Source: a virus
Strand: one strand, 5' to 3'
IMG/VR virus record: IMGVR_UViG_3300043464_001826
Span: 1 to 38,591 of that record
DNA length: 38,591 bases
The notes beneath the pieces were generated by a model. That model made no database searches. It was not told where the DNA came from and saw nothing but the letters and a program-made list of their open reading frames with translations. Of this stretch, positions 2,746 through 30,400 are shown piece by piece. How positions within the stretch are numbered: the stretch's first letter is position 1; each line of letters opens with the position of its first letter. A program made the position numbers and the translations under genes.

Positions 2746-3315
2746 ATGAACAATTTCGCCACGGCGATCAATCAAACTGCTGCGCGCTCCGTGGGGCGCG
2801 TGGAGCTAGGCACGCCTAGACTTGGCCCGTTACGTCAGCGCAACGCTGGCTGGGCTAGGCGCTGCACCGCTGGGCGAGCTAAGGCTTCGCAGGCGAGGAT
2901 AGGTCTGGCACGTCCGGGCCCGGCGAAGCACCGCTGGCAAGGTATAGCAAGACGAGTCGCGGCAATTCGCGGCAACGCAGGCTTGGTAGGCCGGGCTAGG
3001 CAGGGTCAGGCGAAGCAACGCAGGCTAGGCTGGGCACAGCGCGATAGCGCGCGGCCAGGCACGCATTGGCAACGCAGGCATGGCGTTGCGAGGTTAGGCG
3101 TGGTCAGGACTGGCGTAGCAACGCAGGCTGGGTATGGGTTGGCACTTCCGCGCATGGCACGAGTAGGCGCGGCAACGCAGGCGCGGCATGGCCTTGCGTG
3201 GCATGGACTGGCGCGACCGGGCGCCGCAAGGCTAGGCAACGCAGGCAAGGCCAGGCGAGTCGGGGCGCGGAGCGGCAACACACGACACACACCGGGGAGC
3301 GCGACCGGGGTATAA
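2746..3315 (+). CDS. Open frame through the 5-bp periodic tract (doubtful gene)
   Basis: A 189-residue frame runs through the repeat tract and reads as a degenerate Gly/Ala/Arg pentad pattern such as GLAWHGLARPG and GRARQGQAK. Because 5 is not a multiple of 3, every frame of a 5-bp repeat encodes a related pentad, so an open frame here is expected by composition alone. Overlapping open frames also occur in other frames and on the other strand. No ribosome site or CA leader precedes the ATG at 2746. I think the DNA, not a protein, is the functional element. Confidence 0.2.
   Translation: MNNFATAINQTAARSVGRVELGTPRLGPLRQRNAGWARRCTAGRAKASQARIGLARPGPAKHRWQGIARRVAAIRGNAGLVGRARQGQAKQRRLGWAQRDSARPGTHWQRRHGVARLGVVRTGVATQAGYGLALPRMARVGAATQARHGLAWHGLARPGAARLGNAGKARRVGARSGNTRHTPGSATGV
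2790..3290. repeat. 5-bp-periodic GC-rich repeat tract with GCAACGCAGGC cores
   Basis: The stretch is built from degenerate 5-base units of the form NAGGC or NNGGC, for example CAGGC TAGGC TGGGC. The 11-mer GCAACGCAGGC occurs perfectly six times, at 2972, 3015, 3069, 3118, 3172 and 3236, spaced 43-64 bases. Near copies lie at 2840, 2864, 2884 and 2928. It separates the recombination genes from the replication genes. The role is unknown: a protein-binding array, a recombination hot spot or part of a replication region are all possible. Confidence 0.85.
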
Positions 3316-3360
3316 ATTGCGCTCACTTTTTTCAGAGAACAACAAACCAAACACACACCA

Positions 3361-3852
3361 ATGATTAGCCTACTAGAACCACAACGCGGGTCGCTGACCC
3401 GCAACGACGAACTCCGCAAGGAACTCACGGCCATCGCCGCCAGCAAGCGCGGCCTGACGCCGGAATCGGTCTTGGCCGTTGCCAAGAGTCCGCGCTCAAC
3501 CCTGCACACTTACTTTTGTTGGGACGATACGGAGGCAGCGCGGAAATACCGCGAGTTTCAAGCCTACGAGTTGATTCGGCGGGTAAAGGTGACGATTGAA
3601 ACACCCGACAACAAGACGCTGACGATCCGCGCTTTTTGGCCGGTCAAACAGGTCGAAAACGACGGGACGATTGATGCGGCTAAACGTGGAACATACTTGC
3701 CGCTCGCTGACGCTTTCCAAGACGAGAAGGCTTTGGCGCAAATCATCAATGCCGCCAAGTCGGAGCTTCGCGCTTTTACCGTTAAGTATTCGCAGCTTGA
3801 GCGGGTGGCAGACATGACAGGGGTATTCACGGCCATACGAGAGGCAATCTAA
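3361..3852 (+). CDS. Conserved phage early protein of unknown function
   Basis: The 163-residue protein contains a segment I recognise from many phage early regions: a helical N-terminus (LTPESVLAVAKSP), then FCWDDTEAARKYREFQAYELIRRVKVTIE near residue 52, then a beta-rich half and a helical C-terminus. No enzymatic motif is visible. It is followed without a gap by the replication initiator (TAATG), so a replication accessory role is plausible. The ATG at 3361 follows AACCAAACACACACCA. A TATAAA box at 3311-3316 might be part of a promoter after the repeat tract, but I see no clear -35 element. Confidence 0.7.
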   Translation: MISLLEPQRGSLTRNDELRKELTAIAASKRGLTPESVLAVAKSPRSTLHTYFCWDDTEAARKYREFQAYELIRRVKVTIETPDNKTLTIRAFWPVKQVENDGTIDAAKRGTYLPLADAFQDEKALAQIINAAKSELRAFTVKYSQLERVADMTGVFTAIREAI

Positions 3853-6357: not shown

Positions 6358-6987
6358 ATGAACCTCCAAGTGCCATCCCAAGCCCAGATTGCCCGCGAGT
6401 GCGGCATCTCCAACCCGCTTGTTACGAAATACAAAAAGCGCGGCGCGCCCACACATTCGGTGGAGGCTTTCCGCGCCTGGTTGGCGGTGAACGTCAATCA
6501 GAGCAAGGCGCTGGATACCGCGCCCGGCCCTGACGCGCTGGAAGACCGCATGGAGGAGCAGCCCGCCGAAGTGGCCGAGGTGCTCCAGACGCCCGTGCCG
6601 GAACAGGTGGCGTCCATCAACGCCCAACTCAAACAGACGGAAACAATTCTGAAATGGACGCAGGGCATGATCGCAAAGCTAAACAGAGACGGAAACATTG
6701 AAGCAGCCCGCAAGTGGCTCCACAGCTACGCCCTTGTCTCCAAGAAGATGCAGGAGATCCAAGACAAGCTGGTCGAGACGCGCATCAAATGCGGGGAGCT
6801 TGTGCGCTACACTGTTGCCAAGGACATGGTGGCCTCGCCATTGCGCCGGCTTCGCGCCTCCTTGGTCAAGATGCCCCACGAGCTTGCTGGCCGTTGCAAC
6901 CCGCAGAACCCAGAGCAGGCCAAGGACGCCATCAACGAATGGTGCGCCAATTTTTTCAGAGAAGAATCACAATATGAAATCCATTGA
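6358..6987 (+). CDS. Terminase small subunit (Nu1-like)
   Basis: This 209-residue protein opens with a helix-turn-helix of the Nu1 / phage DNA-packaging type (VPSQAQIARECGISNPLVTKYKKRGAP, residues 4-30, then FRAWLA). A linker and a long helical region follow (AQLKQTETILKWTQGMIAKLNRDGNIEAARKWLHSYALVSKKMQEIQDKLVETR). Small terminase recognises the packaging site and recruits the large subunit. The large subunit lies two genes downstream. The gene starts the late block directly after the inverted-repeat spacer and overlaps the next gene by 14 bases. Confidence 0.75.
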   Translation: MNLQVPSQAQIARECGISNPLVTKYKKRGAPTHSVEAFRAWLAVNVNQSKALDTAPGPDALEDRMEEQPAEVAEVLQTPVPEQVASINAQLKQTETILKWTQGMIAKLNRDGNIEAARKWLHSYALVSKKMQEIQDKLVETRIKCGELVRYTVAKDMVASPLRRLRASLVKMPHELAGRCNPQNPEQAKDAINEWCANFFREESQYEIH

Positions 6988-8206
6988 AAACATCGAGCAG
7001 ATAGCCGTCTCGTCTTTGATTGCTTACGCGGGCAACCCACGAAAGAACGACCACGCTGTCGAGGCTGTAGCCGCCGCCATCAAACGCTTTGGCTTCCGCG
7101 TCCCGGTCTTGGCAAAGTCTGACGGCTCGCTGATCGACGGGCATCTGCGCGTAAAGGCGGCCAAGCATCTCGGCATGGAGGAAGTGCCCGCCGTCTTGTG
7201 CGATGATCTCAGCGAGGCCGACATCAAGGCGTTGCGAATCAGCATCAACCGCATGGCAGAGCTTGCCGAGTGGGATGCCGAGCTACTAAACGCGGAGCTT
7301 GAGGGATTGGCGGCGGAAGGATTTTCGATTGAAGACTTGGGGTTTGATGCCGCCGCGCTGGAAGAACTCGGCGCGGACTTAGGGCTGGAAGAAAAGCCCG
7401 AATTGGACGCCGAACCGCAGATCGACAAGGCCGAAGAACTCCGCGCCAAGTGGGGCGTCGAGCCGGGGCAACTTTGGGAGCTTGGCGACCATCGGTTGCT
7501 GTGCGGGGACAGCACCAAGAAAGAGGATGTGGAGAAAGCATTGGGCGGGGCTTCGCCGATGCTCATGGTTACAGATCCGCCGTATGGGGTGAACTACGAC
7601 GCCTCTTGGCGGGTAGAGGCTGGCGTAAATAAACCGTGGCAAACTCGCGCGGAAGGCAAAGTTGAAAACGACGACAAGGCCGACTGGACTGAAACGTGGG
7701 AACTGTTCAATGGGTCTGTTGCCTATGTCTGGCACGGTGGTCTGCACGCAAAAGTCGTTGCGGAAAGTCTTCAGACGTCGGACTTTGCAATTCGCAGCCA
7801 GATTATTTGGGCCAAACCATCGCTTGTAATGGGTCGGGGCCACTACCACTGGCAGCACGAACCGTGCTGGTATGCCGTAAGAAAAAACGAAACCGGAATT
7901 TGGAAAGGAGACCGCAAGCAAGCCACAGTCTGGGACATTGCAAATATGCACCGAACCCAAGGCTCGGTTGATGATGGAAAAACTTTTCACAGCACCCAAA
8001 AGCCCGTCGAGTGCATGGCCCGCCCGATCCGAAACCACGACAGCGAGTTTGTCTACGAACCTTTCAGCGGCAGCGGCACAACCATCATCGCCTGCGAGCA
8101 ACTTGGTCGCAAATGCCGCGCCATTGAGATCAGTCCCGCCTATGTCGCCGTGGCACTCCAACGATGGGCCGATGCCACAGGCAAGACGCCGAAGCTGGTG
8201 GCATGA
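6974..8206 (+). CDS. ParB-domain / DNA methyltransferase fusion
   Basis: In this 410-residue protein, residues about 8-100 form a ParB N-terminal-type domain (AYAGNPRKND..AIKRFGFRVPVL, then DGHLRVKAAKHLGMEEVPAVL). The methyltransferase motif DPPY is at residues 201-204 and FSGSGTT at 364-370. DPPY before FxGxG is the beta-class order of N4-cytosine or N6-adenine enzymes. Phages use such enzymes to protect their DNA from restriction or to mark packaged DNA. Placement between the two terminase subunits suggests action close to packaging. It overlaps both neighbours (ATGA with large terminase). Confidence 0.9.
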   Translation: MKSIENIEQIAVSSLIAYAGNPRKNDHAVEAVAAAIKRFGFRVPVLAKSDGSLIDGHLRVKAAKHLGMEEVPAVLCDDLSEADIKALRISINRMAELAEWDAELLNAELEGLAAEGFSIEDLGFDAAALEELGADLGLEEKPELDAEPQIDKAEELRAKWGVEPGQLWELGDHRLLCGDSTKKEDVEKALGGASPMLMVTDPPYGVNYDASWRVEAGVNKPWQTRAEGKVENDDKADWTETWELFNGSVAYVWHGGLHAKVVAESLQTSDFAIRSQIIWAKPSLVMGRGHYHWQHEPCWYAVRKNETGIWKGDRKQATVWDIANMHRTQGSVDDGKTFHSTQKPVECMARPIRNHDSEFVYEPFSGSGTTIIACEQLGRKCRAIEISPAYVAVALQRWADATGKTPKLVA

Positions 8207-14145: not shown

Positions 14146-15870
14146 GTGGCAAAGATTCATCTCGGCATCATTGTAGGCAACGAAGCGGCCAACATCACCC
14201 GCTTCCTCGACAGCTTCCAGCCGCACGTTGATTCCGTCAGCGTGGTGCGCGCCTGCGGCAAGCAACCGCCCGACGAGACGCTGGACATCGCCAAGGCGCG
14301 TGGCTGCATCGTGGGCGAATACCACAACGGCGAGACGGGCAAGGAATGGCCCCACGTCGATAACTTCGCCGCCGCCCGCAACCAGACCTTTGCCCTCGCG
14401 CCCGAAGGCACAGACTGGCTTATGTGGGCAGATTGCGACGATCTGCTGGCCGACTCAGGGGCCGAGGCGCTGGCCAAGATTCGCAGCGGCACTGAAATTA
14501 TCAAAGGCGCCATCTACGCACCGTATGTGACCAGTGCCGCCGGAAGCTATGCCCGCCGCATCCGCCTCGTCCATGTGGACTGCTACAGCCAGTGGATCAA
14601 TGCCGTTCACGAGGACATCGAGACGAAGGACGGCACCAAAAACACTTGGTGCATGGAACTTCAAGTCATCCACCTCCCCGAAAACAACAAGCGCGGCAGC
14701 GTAGTCCGCAACCGCGCCATTCTTGAAAGCGTGCCGCCAGAGCAACGCACGGGCCGCGAATGGTGGTTCCTTTTCCGCGAGTGCGAGACACAGCAGGACA
14801 TCCCGAAGGCCATGGAGGCCGCGATCTACGCCACGGCCCACCCTGACCTCGGCGACGAGGAAAAGTTCGTGGCCTACCAAACCATAGGCCGATGGATCAA
14901 AGACGTGGACGAAGCCGAGCGCCCGCTGCTGGAAGCCGTGCGCCTCATGCCGTGGCGCCGCGAAGGCTATGCCGAGCTTTGCAAAATGCACACGGCCAGA
15001 GGCAACGCGAAGAAAGGGCTGGCCTATGCCTACGCGATGGAGGCGCAACCTATGCCCGACGAACCCTCTTGGACGCACGATGCGTCCCTCTACGGATGGC
15101 GAGCGCACGATCTAAAGACGCTCGCCCTGGCTAAAGCCGGCCACACCAAGGAGGCCGAGCGCATCCGCAAAGAATGGCAGAAGCGCCTCAAGCCGCGCAT
15201 TGCCGTAGGCCACCCGGCGGGCAGGGGGCAGAAGGACATCGAAGTCCGCAACCTCTGGCTGGAGCGGGCCGCGCACCCGGAGCGCGTGGCCTATTATTTT
15301 GGCATCTGCGAGTCGGACGCGGAGGTGGTTGAGCAGTTGCAGCACTACCCGCACGCATTGGCACCCGCCGTTCCCGAAGGCCATTCCTCTGCCGTGGCCA
15401 ACTACAACGCCGCCGCCCGCGCAGCCACTGCATCGGGAGCGCGCATCTTCATTATGAGTCAGTCGGACGTTTACCCGCCGCATGGTTGGGACGAGCAAGT
15501 GATCCAAGCCATGACCCCGCACATGGACAAGCCGACCGTGCTGCACGTTTCGGATGGCTTTAACAAGCCCGACGAGAAGTTAATGACCATCATGTGCTTC
15601 AACTGGCGGTGGTGGCTGGGCCGCGATTGGTTGCTGTGCCCCGAATACGACGGCTATTGGAGCGATACGGAGTTTTCCTTCCGCGCCTACCGCGACGGCG
15701 TGGTCGAGGATGCACGGCACATTAAGTTCTACCACGACCACCCGCTATTCACGGGCGCGGCCACCGACGAATGTTACCGCCGCCAGCAAAACCCAGAAGC
15801 CAACGAGCGCGGCAAAGCCGTCTTCCGCCGCCGCAACCCGGATGCCGTGGCGCAAGGATGGGTGCCATGA
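14146..15870 (+). CDS. Two-domain glycosyltransferase
   Basis: In this 574-residue protein, residues 1-230 form a GT-A/family 2-like domain (IHLGIIVGNEAANITRFLDSF, then the metal-binding D96-x-D98-D99 in MWADCDDLL). The middle (about 250-350) is helical and TPR-like (AVRLMPWRREGYAELCKMH). The C-terminal 200 residues look like a second transferase-type domain (NYNAAARAATASGARIFIMSQSDVYPPHGWDEQV, GYWSDTEFSFRAYRDG, FYHDHP). It probably moves sugars onto virion proteins or host surface glycans. It starts with GTG at 14146, 112 bases after the capsid stop, and overlaps the next glycosyltransferase gene (ATGA). Confidence 0.82.
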   Translation: MAKIHLGIIVGNEAANITRFLDSFQPHVDSVSVVRACGKQPPDETLDIAKARGCIVGEYHNGETGKEWPHVDNFAAARNQTFALAPEGTDWLMWADCDDLLADSGAEALAKIRSGTEIIKGAIYAPYVTSAAGSYARRIRLVHVDCYSQWINAVHEDIETKDGTKNTWCMELQVIHLPENNKRGSVVRNRAILESVPPEQRTGREWWFLFRECETQQDIPKAMEAAIYATAHPDLGDEEKFVAYQTIGRWIKDVDEAERPLLEAVRLMPWRREGYAELCKMHTARGNAKKGLAYAYAMEAQPMPDEPSWTHDASLYGWRAHDLKTLALAKAGHTKEAERIRKEWQKRLKPRIAVGHPAGRGQKDIEVRNLWLERAAHPERVAYYFGICESDAEVVEQLQHYPHALAPAVPEGHSSAVANYNAAARAATASGARIFIMSQSDVYPPHGWDEQVIQAMTPHMDKPTVLHVSDGFNKPDEKLMTIMCFNWRWWLGRDWLLCPEYDGYWSDTEFSFRAYRDGVVEDARHIKFYHDHPLFTGAATDECYRRQQNPEANERGKAVFRRRNPDAVAQGWVP

Positions 15871-19972: not shown

Positions 19973-22337
19973 AGTAAAAGTAAAAATTACCGCGCAAAAC
20001 GAAGTTCAAACCGGGCTTCAGCAAGCCTTGAACGATGCCAAAAAATTCGGGCAAGAGGCGACCAGTGCCGTCACCATTGACGAACAAGCCGCTACGGCTC
20101 CCATTCGAAAAATACAATCGGCGCTGGCTCAAGGTGTAAAAGTTCCATCACCGAAATTAGAAAGCGATCGGCCGCTAAAAGTTGCTGTAGAGGCGGAGAC
20201 TCCAAAACTCAGCGACCAGCAAGCGGTCAAGGTGGCCTTGGAGGCTACGGGGCTTGAACAGATCGAGCAGCTAAAAGCCGCGCTGGCCGAGGCCGACAAC
20301 AAGGTCTTGCGCGTGGCGCTTGAAGCGTCGGGCCTTTCTACCGCAGAGGAATTGCGCGAGGCCTTGGCGCAAGCAGAAGACAAAACCGTGCAGCTTGCCC
20401 TTGAGGCCACGGGGCTCTCTTCCGTAGAAGAATTACGCGCTGCCCTTGACCAAGCCGACAGCAAAACCGTGCAGCTTGCCTTGGAGGCCACGGGGCTCTC
20501 GTCTGCAAAAGAATTAACAGATGCGATTGATCGCTCTGAAAATAAATCCGTCCAACTGGCTCTTGAGGCGACCGGCTTATCTGACGCCAAAAGCCTTAAA
20601 GCCGCCATTGACTCCCCAAAAGACAAAACGGTGCGCCTTGCGCTTGAGGCCACGGGGCTCAAAGGAGTAAAAGACCTTGAGAGTGCCATTGATTCCGTCG
20701 AAAGCAAAAACATTGAAATTGAAACGGAACACGAAAAAGCCTTGGCTCCACTGCGGGAATTACAGGCGGAGCTAAAGAAGACAAGACAAGCGGCGCAGCA
20801 AGCCCTCGACCCGCAGCCAGCGGAAGAATTTAGCGGGGGCATTGCCGAGAGCGCGGGACGAATGGCGCTTTTGGGAGTGGGCGCCGCCGTTGTTGGCAAG
20901 GCCATTTCTGCCGCCTTCGATCAACTTAGTCAGGCGCTCAAGTCGGCCATTGGTATTCAAGAGCAATTTAATCAAACTCTTTCGCAGGCGGGACGAGCCA
21001 CAAGCCTTTCTGGGGCCGTTTCGGAATTTACCCAACTCAGCAACGCGGCAAAACAAACAGGCAAGGTCATCGCTGACACCTTTGGGCGCAACATAGGCGA
21101 GTCGATTGCCAACGCGCTACAAGGCCGTCCAGGGCAAATTATCGCACGATTAGCCGACCTCGCTACGGGCGGGGCTGTTCGCGGAGAGCTTGAGGCGGGG
21201 CAAGAGCAACAGCGCCGCATTGCCAGAGAAAACGCGATGGCCAACATGGCGAGGCTTGACCAAGAATCTTTTGAATTGGTCGGGGCGGGGGGAGATCCCG
21301 CCGAGTTGGCACGCATCAAGCGAGAGCAAGAAAAGCGCAGGCAGATGGAAGAGTTGCGGGCCGGGTCGGCTGGAAAAAGCCCCGCCGATATTGAGCGAGA
21401 AGAAAACGAACTTCGCAACATTCAAGCCATGCAGGATCAAATGACCGCGCAGGAGCGGGCTTTTGCCGCGCAGCAGCGAGCCGCGCAGACCAATCGGGCA
21501 ACCGCGCAAATCGGCATGACGCCCCAAGAAAGGCTGGCGCAAGAGCAAGCGAACCAAACGCGATTGCAGGGCGAGGTTGTCGGCGCGTCTCAGGGCGCGC
21601 AATCAATGGCCGAGGTTGCCGCTCGCGTGGCCGAGCTCAATGCCGAGATTGCCGCCAGCAAACAAATCCAAGCGCAACTGGAAAAGCAAATTGCCGACGA
21701 AGCAGAGCGCGCAGCCAAAGCCTCTGAAGCGGCACAAAGAAATGCGATGGCATCCGCCCAAGCGCAAGCGCAGGCCAACCGCGTGGCCGGCATGACGCCC
21801 CAAGAGCAGCTTGATTTTGAAAAGCGCGGCCTGGCTGATTTGGAGGGCTTTGTTGGCCCCGCCGTGGATTTAGCCAGAGAGCAAACCATTTCGCGCATAT
21901 TGGCGCTGGAATCCCAAATCACCTCGGAGAGAGAGCGGCAAGAAAAAGCATCGCAAGACGCAGTTGATTCTTTGGAAAACGTCATCGAGCGGCGTGATTT
22001 TTCTGCCCTTTCGACAGACGAAGAAAAGCAGGCGTCGATAAGATCAGCCGAGTCCGACTTAATTGCAGGAATTGAAAGCGGAGAAATAAGTCCCGCCGAG
22101 GCCGCTGCGCGAGCCATCGAGCTACAAAACAGGCAAGACTCAATCAACGACAACGAAAGCAGATTTGGCGGAAGCGATGCCGCCTCTTCGCTCCAACGTG
22201 TCGGCCTTGCCTCCAACGAGTTCTTTGACGCCTCGGCCAACAAGACAACGAAAGCAATTAACGACACAACGGCCATTGTGCGACGAATCGCCACCCTGCT
22301 GGAAGGCAGCAAAGGACTTTATTTGGAAAGGAACTAA
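19965..22337 (+). CDS. Tail tape measure protein
   Basis: This 790-residue, nearly all-helical protein is the largest helical product of the tail region. Residues 86-247 are six 27-residue repeats. A hydrophobic stretch follows (MALLGVGAAVVGKAISAAF, about 301-319), then long Gln/Glu/Ala-rich coiled coil to the end. Tape measures set tail length and help DNA entry; longer helical content means a longer tail. A GGAGG site lies before the ATG. Confidence 0.8.
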   Translation: MAEVKVKITAQNEVQTGLQQALNDAKKFGQEATSAVTIDEQAATAPIRKIQSALAQGVKVPSPKLESDRPLKVAVEAETPKLSDQQAVKVALEATGLEQIEQLKAALAEADNKVLRVALEASGLSTAEELREALAQAEDKTVQLALEATGLSSVEELRAALDQADSKTVQLALEATGLSSAKELTDAIDRSENKSVQLALEATGLSDAKSLKAAIDSPKDKTVRLALEATGLKGVKDLESAIDSVESKNIEIETEHEKALAPLRELQAELKKTRQAAQQALDPQPAEEFSGGIAESAGRMALLGVGAAVVGKAISAAFDQLSQALKSAIGIQEQFNQTLSQAGRATSLSGAVSEFTQLSNAAKQTGKVIADTFGRNIGESIANALQGRPGQIIARLADLATGGAVRGELEAGQEQQRRIARENAMANMARLDQESFELVGAGGDPAELARIKREQEKRRQMEELRAGSAGKSPADIEREENELRNIQAMQDQMTAQERAFAAQQRAAQTNRATAQIGMTPQERLAQEQANQTRLQGEVVGASQGAQSMAEVAARVAELNAEIAASKQIQAQLEKQIADEAERAAKASEAAQRNAMASAQAQAQANRVAGMTPQEQLDFEKRGLADLEGFVGPAVDLAREQTISRILALESQITSERERQEKASQDAVDSLENVIERRDFSALSTDEEKQASIRSAESDLIAGIESGEISPAEAAARAIELQNRQDSINDNESRFGGSDAASSLQRVGLASNEFFDASANKTTKAINDTTAIVRRIATLLEGSKGLYLERN
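20220..20705 (+). repeat. Six 81-bp tandem repeats in the tape measure gene
   Basis: Units start at 20220, 20301, 20382, 20463, 20544 and 20625. Each encodes 27 residues of the form KTVQLALEATGLSS..EL.AALD.AD. Units 3 and 4 are almost identical at the start of the unit. Adding or losing one unit would lengthen or shorten the protein by 27 residues. Confidence 0.95.
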
Positions 22338-27447: not shown

Positions 27448-30400
27448 ATGGCCGCTTACCACAAAGTCGAGGTCAGTCTGAACACCAACGCGGTTGAGGT
27501 GGGCATCCCTTCGCCGCAGACGGTGAACGTGACTCTTCCGACCATCGGCCCTGCGGGGCCAGCCGGGGCCGCAGGAGCGGCTGGAGCGGCGGGCCAAGCC
27601 GCGACCGTCGCGGTCGGAACCGTCACCACGGGAGAACCTGGAACCCAAGCCAGCGTCACAAATGCCGGAACATCAAACGCAGCGGTTTTGAATTTCACCA
27701 TTCCGCGCGGCGAAGATGGCGAAGGCGGCGGCGTTTCGTCGTGGAACGATCTCACAGACAAGCCTTCGGAGTTTGCGCCAAGTGCCCACGCCGCTAGTCA
27801 CCTCCCCGATGGCGTTGATGAGATTTTTGACCAAGACCTCAACACCGATGACGATGTTCAATTCAACAGCGTAGGCGTCAATACGCCATCCAGCGGCAAC
27901 GACTTGTATATTGTCGGCAAAGACAACGCCGATGCCAACATGGTCTTTGAGACTTCAGAAAATTTAGACGGCGGATACAGGGCCAGTATATTGTTTGAAA
28001 ACAAAGGGACAGGTGGGCGGCGTTGGCAAATGGCAGCGAGCAACGATGCTGACGGCGGATTGGGCGGCGGAAAGTTTTCAATCGTGGACGGCACGGAAGG
28101 GCCAAGCGACGACAGATTTCATATCACCAGCAGCGGCCTCGTCGGCGTTGGAGCGTTTGGAGTGGATGAGGCGCAAGCCCAACTTGATGTTGCAGGCGAA
28201 ATACAATTTGCCGACTCCACCGACACAAGCAAAAAGGCAACTTTCGACGTTTCGGGCGTCGAGTCAGGCGAAACAAGGACTTTAGAAATTCCCGACGCCT
28301 CTGGAGTCATCGCCCTCACAACCGACAACGCCGATCAATTCGGCAGCGGGTCTGCGCCAGACAACTACGTCCTTACGTCTGACGGCGCGGGTGGCGCTGC
28401 ATGGGAAGCGGCAACTGGCGGTGGCGGAGGCGATACCGTCTCAATCGAAACAAGTGCCGCAGACATTCTTTCCGTCTCATCGGGGGCCATCTCGGCAGAC
28501 GATGCGGGCGCGGATCGGATCGTTTACTGGAACAACACGAGCAACAAACTCGCTTACGGAACGCCGTCCGATGTTGGCGCGGCGGCAAGCTCGCACACGC
28601 ACTCGGATGCCACACAGTCTGTCGCTGGATTTCTTTCCACGGCAGACAAGACCAAGCTGGACGGCATTGCGAGTGGCGCGGAAGTAAACGTCAACGCCGA
28701 TTGGAACGCATCGAGCGGTGACGCGCAGATCCTTAACAAGCCGACCCTCGGCACCGCAGCAGCAGCAGCGACAACTGACTTTGCGGCGGCTTCGCACACC
28801 CACGCAGCCTCGGCCATCACCTCGGGAACCTTGGATGTGGCGCGCCTCCCTGTCGGCACAGGCAGCACACAGGTCGCCGCAGGCAATCACACGCACGTTG
28901 TCGCAGACGTTACAGGCGCAGCCGCCAGCGGCTCCATCACCACCTCTGGCCTCACCCAAGCCACGGCAAGAATTTTGGGAAGGACGAGCGCCAGCACAGG
29001 CTCCATCGAGGAGATCCAAATCGGGTCGGGCCTTTCGCTTTCGTCGGGGGAGTTGTCGGCTACGGGATCGGGCGTCACCGATGGCGACAAAGGCGACATC
29101 ACCGTCAGCGCATCGGGCGCGACATGGACGATTGATTCGGGCGTAGTCGGAACCTCCAAGCTCGGCGGCGACATCACGACAGCGGGCAAGGCTCTGCTCG
29201 ATGACGCAGACGCAGCGGCACAGCGGACGACCTTGGGCCTCGCTGCCTCGGCCACGACCGACACGACCAACGCCAGCAACATTTCCAGTGGGACGCTTGC
29301 TGTGGCGCGTATGGGCAGCGGGACGCCGAGTGCGTCGAACTTTTTGCGCGGGGATGGGTCATGGCAGGCGGTGACAGCGGGAGTCGGCGGTGGCACAGGC
29401 TCCACCGACAATTCTATTTTGCGGAGTGACGGCACGGGAGGCAGCACGTTGCAGGCAAGCGCCATCGTCATCGAAGACGCCGTATCCCCCATCAACATCA
29501 CAGGCGATGCAGGCACGGACATCATCACCGCAGTTGGCCACACTTACACGGCCAACCAAGGCGTCCGCTTCCCGACCTTGACGGGCGGTGCAGGGCTCAC
29601 CGCAGCAACCACCAACTACTTCGTCCGCGACATTTCTGGCGACACGTTCAAGGTATCTACAACAAGCGGCGGATCGGCGGTTAATTTTACGACCAACATC
29701 ACGGCGGGGACGGTGATCGCCATGCAGGCGAATGTTGCCATTGTTAATAATGCGGCAGACACCGATTCATCCTTGGTTCTTGGCTTAAAGGGCGCTGGCG
29801 CATTGATGCTTGTCAGGCCAGACGGTGGCACTGCTGGAGGAAATGCAAGGGGGCTTGGCGCAGTTGATTTACAAGCAAGACTAACAGGCATAACCAACAT
29901 TGACATAGCATCGGGGAACTACAGTTTCGCGGCTGGTTCCAACGGAAGGGCAAGCGGCTTGTATTCAGTCGCTATGGGCAGACAATCCATTGCGTCACAA
30001 GAAACTGCCATCGCCATCGGCAACATAGCAACAGCATCTGGAACGCATAGCGTTTCTATTGGCGGAAGCAATAATGCGGCATCGGGCGGCTGGGCGGGTT
30101 GCATTGCTGGCAATAGCGGTTCAGCAAGCGGAACAACTTCGCTCATGTTGGGCGGCGATTATTCGCTGGCCGACAGAAACTATTTGCTTGCCAACGCAAG
30201 CGGACGTTTTGCTGCAACTGGAGATGCACAATGGATTCACGTTGTCTTACGCGCCAAAACGACAACCAATACCGCCGTCGAATTGCAAGCTGGCGGATTT
30301 GCCGCCTCTGCTGCCGCCCTCAACATCCCCAGCGGCAAAGTCATCAGCGGCATCGTGAACATTCACGGCGTAAAATCAGACGGGTCGGCTGTCGCTCACT

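Follow-up and report, generated by a model that had tools for sequence, protein, structure and literature searches.

A probable VIPR guide-RNA array, marked by a 4.9-nucleotide period, in a virus genome and in related phages

What is the function of a short-period repeat set among the genes of a virus? We have studied this question in a DNA of 38,591 nucleotides (IMG/VR record IMGVR_UViG_3300043464_001826), the whole of which is termed the window. A first-pass annotation had described a five-base-periodic, NNGGC-like tract of about 500 bp lying between recombination and replication genes, and had suggested a protein-binding array, a recombination stimulator or a structured RNA as its role. The placement is correct. 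Upstream lie genes for an ERF annealing protein and a RecE/exonuclease VIII-like exonuclease, followed by the gene at 2101–2733; downstream come the gene at 3361–3852 and then a replication initiator (at 3852). The window also encodes a terminase, a portal protein, an endolysin and an integrase, and this suggests that the phage is a temperate tailed phage.

We conclude, with a probability of about 95%, that the locus is a VIPR (Viral Interference Programmable Repeat) system and that the tract is its guide-RNA array. Membership of this class is well supported by the protein, the array and the tail. As outlined in the bioRxiv preprint that described it in 2026 (PMC13142463), a VIPR system comprises a RAMP protein (Vipr), GGY/NN vrRNAs, a structured 3′ tail and accessory vap genes. 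DNA, often that of competing phages, is recognized by the NN pairs with a one-nucleotide skip, and the system is proposed as an ancestor of CRISPR. The earlier ideas of a protein-bound array and of a structured RNA thus came near the answer, while a recombination stimulator finds no support. The features of the locus are as follows.

2101–2733, + strand: vipr gene, encoding a 210-residue RAMP-fold protein of the phrog_4652 family, predicted RNA-binding subunit (from profile, fold and selection)
2783–2800, + strand: 5′ leader hairpin read from the sequence, stem CGCGCTC / GGGCGCG, loop CGTG
2801–3276, + strand: predicted vrRNA guide array of NN-GGY units, about 9–10 modules parted by 4-nt steps (from dynamic-programming parse, spectrum and about 110 loci)
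3287–3325, + strand: 3′ tail, H-type pseudoknot, stem 1 3292–3295/3305–3308, stem 2 3297–3301/3320–3324, extending to 3302/3319
3361–3852, + strand: conserved partner gene, candidate vap, phrog_15946, accompanying vipr and the tract at most loci

The tract had been placed at 2790–3290. It is indeed there, but the conserved leader hairpin and the tail, which runs to about 3325, reach beyond these bounds.

The periodicity was analyzed spectrally. The strongest period within 2790–3290, in the range 3.5–8, was 4.88 with a power of 20.1; in 1000 dinucleotide shuffles the maximum power averaged 2.4 and was 5.0 at its highest. The tract is therefore clearly real. Six perfect copies of GCAACGCAGGC, reported earlier as 43–64 bp apart, were found with starts at 2972, 3015, 3069, 3118, 3172 and 3236 (spacings of 43, 54, 49, 54 and 64), and there are no copies on the opposite strand. 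The proposed period of five bases is close to a strong peak but is not exact: the power at 5.00 over the whole tract was just 0.55. The true period is 4.9 because each GCAACGCAGGC core, reading GGC AA CGC A GGC, includes a 4-nt step, which shifts the phase. Testing the tract for an exact period of 5 would have been misleading.

We parsed the tract by dynamic programming, allowing both 5-nt and 4-nt steps. Positions 2785–3276 resolved into 101 units, the first two short rows being the leader hairpin, with an exact GGY in 54% of units and NGY in 80%. This conformity to the scaffold is modest, compared with 92–98% GGY in some clades. An Rfam search gave no credible family for the tract, and nothing resembling it was found in a plasmid collection.

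The gene at 2101–2733 is predicted to encode a RAMP-fold protein related to the Vipr of Escherichia phage SUSP1, on the basis of profile and model comparisons. A profile of 48 relatives matched the PDB entry 36pp_D ("SUSP1 Vipr protein") with E = 4.7e-6, in an alignment of just 47 residues. Applied to the SUSP1 genome (KT454805), the same profile picked out the Vipr gene product at 28474–29061, which has GGT/NN vrRNAs flanking it. An AlphaFold2 model of the window protein had a pLDDT of 89, and all 38 Foldseek hits at E ≤ 0.001 were CRISPR RAMP-containing complexes of Csm3/Cas7 type, at modest TM-scores of 0.3–0.5. Searches of Pfam and NCBIfam gave no family for the protein. The gene is under strong purifying selection, with 36 of the 37 nucleotide differences from the close relative L005 being synonymous.

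By Foldseek the protein falls in the fold family of the RAMP backbone (Cas7/Csm3) of Class 1 CRISPR-Cas. A protein filament on a guide RNA is established for CRISPR, and by analogy may be expected here. The locus differs from CRISPR-Cas, however, in having no CRISPR repeats, in a period of about 5 rather than 6, and in guide information that would reside in alternating dinucleotides. Repeat and tandem-repeat scans revealed no array of the CRISPR kind, in which identical repeats alternate with unique spacers, and no cas family was matched by the neighboring proteins tested.

The array is accompanied by vipr in many other genomes, and almost every relative of the 2101–2733 protein has such a tract adjoining its gene. 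When the first 8 kb of the window were compared by BLAST, cluster F mycobacteriophages were matched at the tract; these carry a cleaner NNGGC tract adjoining a homolog of the 2101–2733 protein. Loci with such homologs were then fetched and scanned for an adjacent periodic tract. About 110 loci have one, with the spectral peak at 4.8–4.94, some of these being the same contig fetched twice; where no tract was seen, the vipr homolog was mostly at a contig end. The sources include IMG/VR phages, mycobacteriophages, a cyanophage and Gordonia phages, together with contigs of Bradyrhizobium, Roseococcus, Verrucomicrobia, Planctomycetes, Gemmatales and Synergistaceae. Across loci the repeat is one-stranded, with 4101 NNGGY units in runs on the vipr strand vs 36 on the opposite strand. 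Evidently a one-stranded GGY/NN array travels with vipr across unrelated phages. Two loci use the unit NNGTC in place of NNGGC, so that the letters differ and the spacing is retained. One is L031, with GTC units and AGGCAGGC steps; the other is a Gemmatales contig with a VIPR-like array of about 1.9 kb (L120:4535–6412), whose scaffold has GTC in place of GGC. Near the start of loci L094 and L095 there is a strong signal of period 4.5, possibly from a 9-bp repeat, that is separate from the VIPR array.

The 3′ end of the array has a defined RNA structure. In an alignment of 16 tails in one register, 96.5% of cells were paired and two-sided changes occurred at all five stem-2 pairs; there were 29 cells with such changes, compared with 8.2 in shuffles. 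The covariation score was 0.573 vs 0.120 for shuffled alignments (none of 500 reached the observed value), and slid controls gave ≤0.07. The pseudoknot is therefore supported by compensatory changes. A simple detector found pseudoknots of 10–12 bp in the four SUSP1 tails and of 11 bp in the window tail, and the topology is the same in both. This type of tail is not universal among the clades, the motif GGGTAWAA being present in 37 of 100 tails and the remainder averaging weaker structures. The leader hairpin also appears by eye to covary: in L012 the loop is unchanged and the stem is altered (GGATTC-CGTG-GAATCC).

The closest described system is the type II VIPR of SUSP1 (PMC13142463; PDB 36pp). 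Both loci have profile-related RAMP Vipr proteins, GGY/NN repeats on the vipr strand and an H-type pseudoknot as the 3′ tail. SUSP1 has four separate vrRNAs of about 100 nt, each with its own tail, whereas the window appears to have concatenated guides with one visible tail. The SUSP1 units are mostly GGT; those of the window are mostly GGC, with A-marked 4-nt steps. The partner genes are also unlike, the 3361–3852 product showing no similarity to that of the SUSP1 neighbor gene. The partner has no Pfam family, and its AlphaFold model (pLDDT 84) gave no fold match in the PDB. It is most likely the vap protein of this VIPR type, for which we regard it as a candidate.

Binding, RNA processing and function in the window phage may be envisaged by analogy with SUSP1 and with the RAMPs of Class 1 CRISPR. 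The tract would be transcribed into guide RNA, along which Vipr would oligomerize, each subunit taking up roughly one 5-nt unit. The protein would hold the GGY positions, leaving the NN pairs to read double-stranded DNA as NN-x-NN-x-NN, i.e., with a skip of one nucleotide. The NN letters probably recognize the DNA of competing phages, and the complex would repress a gene carried by a competitor, be it a phage, a prophage or a satellite.

How is the array divided into guides? In the non-redundant loci there were 5938 five-nucleotide steps and 765 four-nucleotide steps, and the single letter of the 4-nt step was A in 703 of the 765. The 4-nt steps lie mostly 8–11 units apart, and the coefficient of variation of the interval is 0.40, compared with 0.94 for random placement. 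From this we deduce that the A-containing 4-nt steps may bound guide modules of about 9 NN. A junction and four of the modules downstream of it in the window are listed below.

2972–2982, + strand: module junction GCAACGCAGGC, 4-nt step with A; the 11-mer recurs at the five later starts given above (3015, 3069, 3118, 3172, 3236)
3023–3075, + strand: guide module of 10 NN, TA TG AC GC AG GC CA AC TT AA
3077–3124, + strand: guide module of 9 NN, AT GT GA TA GT CA CT GT AA; replaced in L005
3126–3178, + strand: guide module of 10 NN, TG AT TT AC CG AT AC TA GC AA
3180–3242, + strand: guide module of 12 NN, GC AT CT GT AT CT GC CG GC AA TA AA

These data suggest an arrangement in which several guides lie head to tail in the manner of CRISPR spacers, each guide having about 9 NN and a 4-nt GGC-A-GGC step at its boundary, with modules gained, lost or recoded singly and one pseudoknot tail shared by all. 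We put this forward tentatively, at somewhat short of an even chance. If one tail serves the whole head-to-tail array, processing must differ from that in SUSP1. We claim no priority for a concatenated layout, since staggered arrays, in which the vrRNAs of some types overlap, and other kinds of array are already mentioned in the preprint (PMC13142463).

The single tail visible at the array end could also mean that the whole VIPR tract is one long guide, or that guides overlap the 4-nt steps, as in the staggered arrays of overlapping vrRNAs that the preprint mentions for some types. Against this, the 4-nt steps are regularly spaced with a near-invariant A, and whole modules have been gained or lost in the mycobacteriophages and in the relatives of the window. 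These features point to modules as the units, and we consider the alternative readings unlikely, though they deserve to be kept in mind.

The modules between 4-nt steps are the units of gain and loss between relatives. Two modules of Donkeykong are absent from Brocalys, and one module of James is absent from ByChance. The window and L005 have the leader-side modules in common, and differ in the module 2892–2934 and in everything from 3077 onward. In L004 the vipr gene has 41 nucleotide differences from that of the window and the protein is identical, yet the array is different. Close relatives thus have leader, tail and vipr in common while whole modules differ, a replacement that resembles the turnover of spacers. 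Where the window and L005 arrays can be aligned, in their 5′ part, 7 of 111 NN sites and 6 of 177 scaffold sites differ between the two, so that site-by-site hypervariability of NN is weak there and rests mainly on the replaced modules.

Two further features of the arrays may be mentioned. The module TG AA CA GA CA GC AT AT AC is kept in ten related phage contigs (L071, L072, L073, L075–L078 and L082–L084), with an AG-first form in three more, and is a good candidate for target finding. The array L111:3303–3927 contains two near-identical long NN stretches, suggesting array growth by internal duplication.

Could the tract be a DNA element, iteron-like or a site of replication or recombination, bound in double-stranded form by the 2101–2733 protein or by the initiator at 3852? 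A repeat array set between recombination and replication genes, beside a likely nucleic-acid-binding protein, would accord with this, and the iteron arrays of phage and plasmid origins are likewise tandem repeats adjoining replication genes. However, the position and neighbors of the tract vary among phages and its link to vipr is constant: it lies between vipr and the partner in the window, and in other phages precedes vipr or follows the partner gene. In one mycobacteriophage it adjoins the immunity region. In contrast to an iteron array it keeps strictly to the vipr strand, its end forms an RNA pseudoknot backed by compensatory changes, and it is tied to a protein with the fold of RNA-binding RAMPs rather than to an initiator. 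We judge a DNA element to be very improbable; neither a stimulator of recombination nor an array serving replication is supported, and both an iteron origin and a recombination hotspot were rejected.

That the 189-residue ORF at 2746–3315 is a repetitive protein-coding gene is scarcely credible and was likewise rejected: the frame is open for 189 codons, and its ATG and first 17 or so codons are similar in relatives, but it has no family match, ORFs from the shared ATG run to 89–300 codons in the relatives with unrelated end points, the 4- or 5-nt unit steps shift the frame, and no + frame stays open in 12 of 45 long tracts. Conservation of the 189-residue frame, raised by the first-pass annotation, was thus not borne out on checking. 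Its remarks that open frames arise in several frames on both strands, and that the period is incompatible with a normal gene, were sound; the tract is non-coding.

Returning to the VIPR reading, if the base passed over in the 1-nt skip is the wobble base, NN should resemble codon positions 1 and 2. NN composition correlated with positions 1+2 on the sense strand of vipr and partner genes with r = 0.80, against ≤0.38 for the other five choices of phase and strand. This choice was favored in 1000 of 1000 bootstraps over guides and over loci, and in the window's own clade (171 NN) the values were r = 0.56 and ≤0.10. The match is indirect, and part of it could arise if binding favored NN that begin with a purine.

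Searches for targets turned up no natural target, the matches being at the level expected by chance. With the 1-nt-skip rule, 520 unique guides showed no excess against the fetched loci over skips of 0, 2 or 3 or over shuffled NN. There was again no excess for 411 guides of at least 16 nt against an enlarged set of related phage and host DNA (3.6 Mb, both strands). The exact hits at skip 3 in these searches were unmasked arrays. Six guide patterns gave 0, 0, 0, 2, 14 and 2 hits in IMG/VR, none extending convincingly past the pattern. The last window guide had two IMG/VR hits that are alike (VMLARANY); these were rejected as chance, the proteins being unrelated and the outer NN mismatched, and one is probably a spurious frame. 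Two Bradyrhizobium guides gave three matches in 243 genomes of a Bradyrhizobium genus, compared with two for the reversed-pattern control and one at one mismatch, again consistent with chance.

A VIPR-type locus can be recognized by its 4.9-nt period, with the sequence as the only information. This places the arrays in annotated phages that are tractable in the laboratory, those of cluster F infecting Mycobacterium smegmatis and those of Gordonia, where the array has been annotated as hypothetical proteins or as nothing. To the published account of VIPR our comparisons would add the A-marked 4-nt steps, the turnover of whole modules and the match of NN to codon positions. The module boundaries predict where guides start and end, and the codon-phase signature predicts guides that reproduce the codons of the coding strand and leave out the wobble base.

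Some minor observations were also made. Gp48 of Mycobacterium phage Donkeykong (L002:2381–2767), annotated as a hypothetical protein, overlaps the array, as happens in several cluster F phages, and its gene is probably spurious. Elsewhere in the window, 6974–8206 encodes a ParB-like domain fused with a DNA methyltransferase (phrog_498), and an ORF at 14146–15870, downstream of the terminase and portal genes, resembles the beta-1,4-glycosyltransferase family (phrog_13126). An 81-bp tandem repeat of 2.3 copies lies at 20329–20516 within a 790-residue ORF of unknown function.
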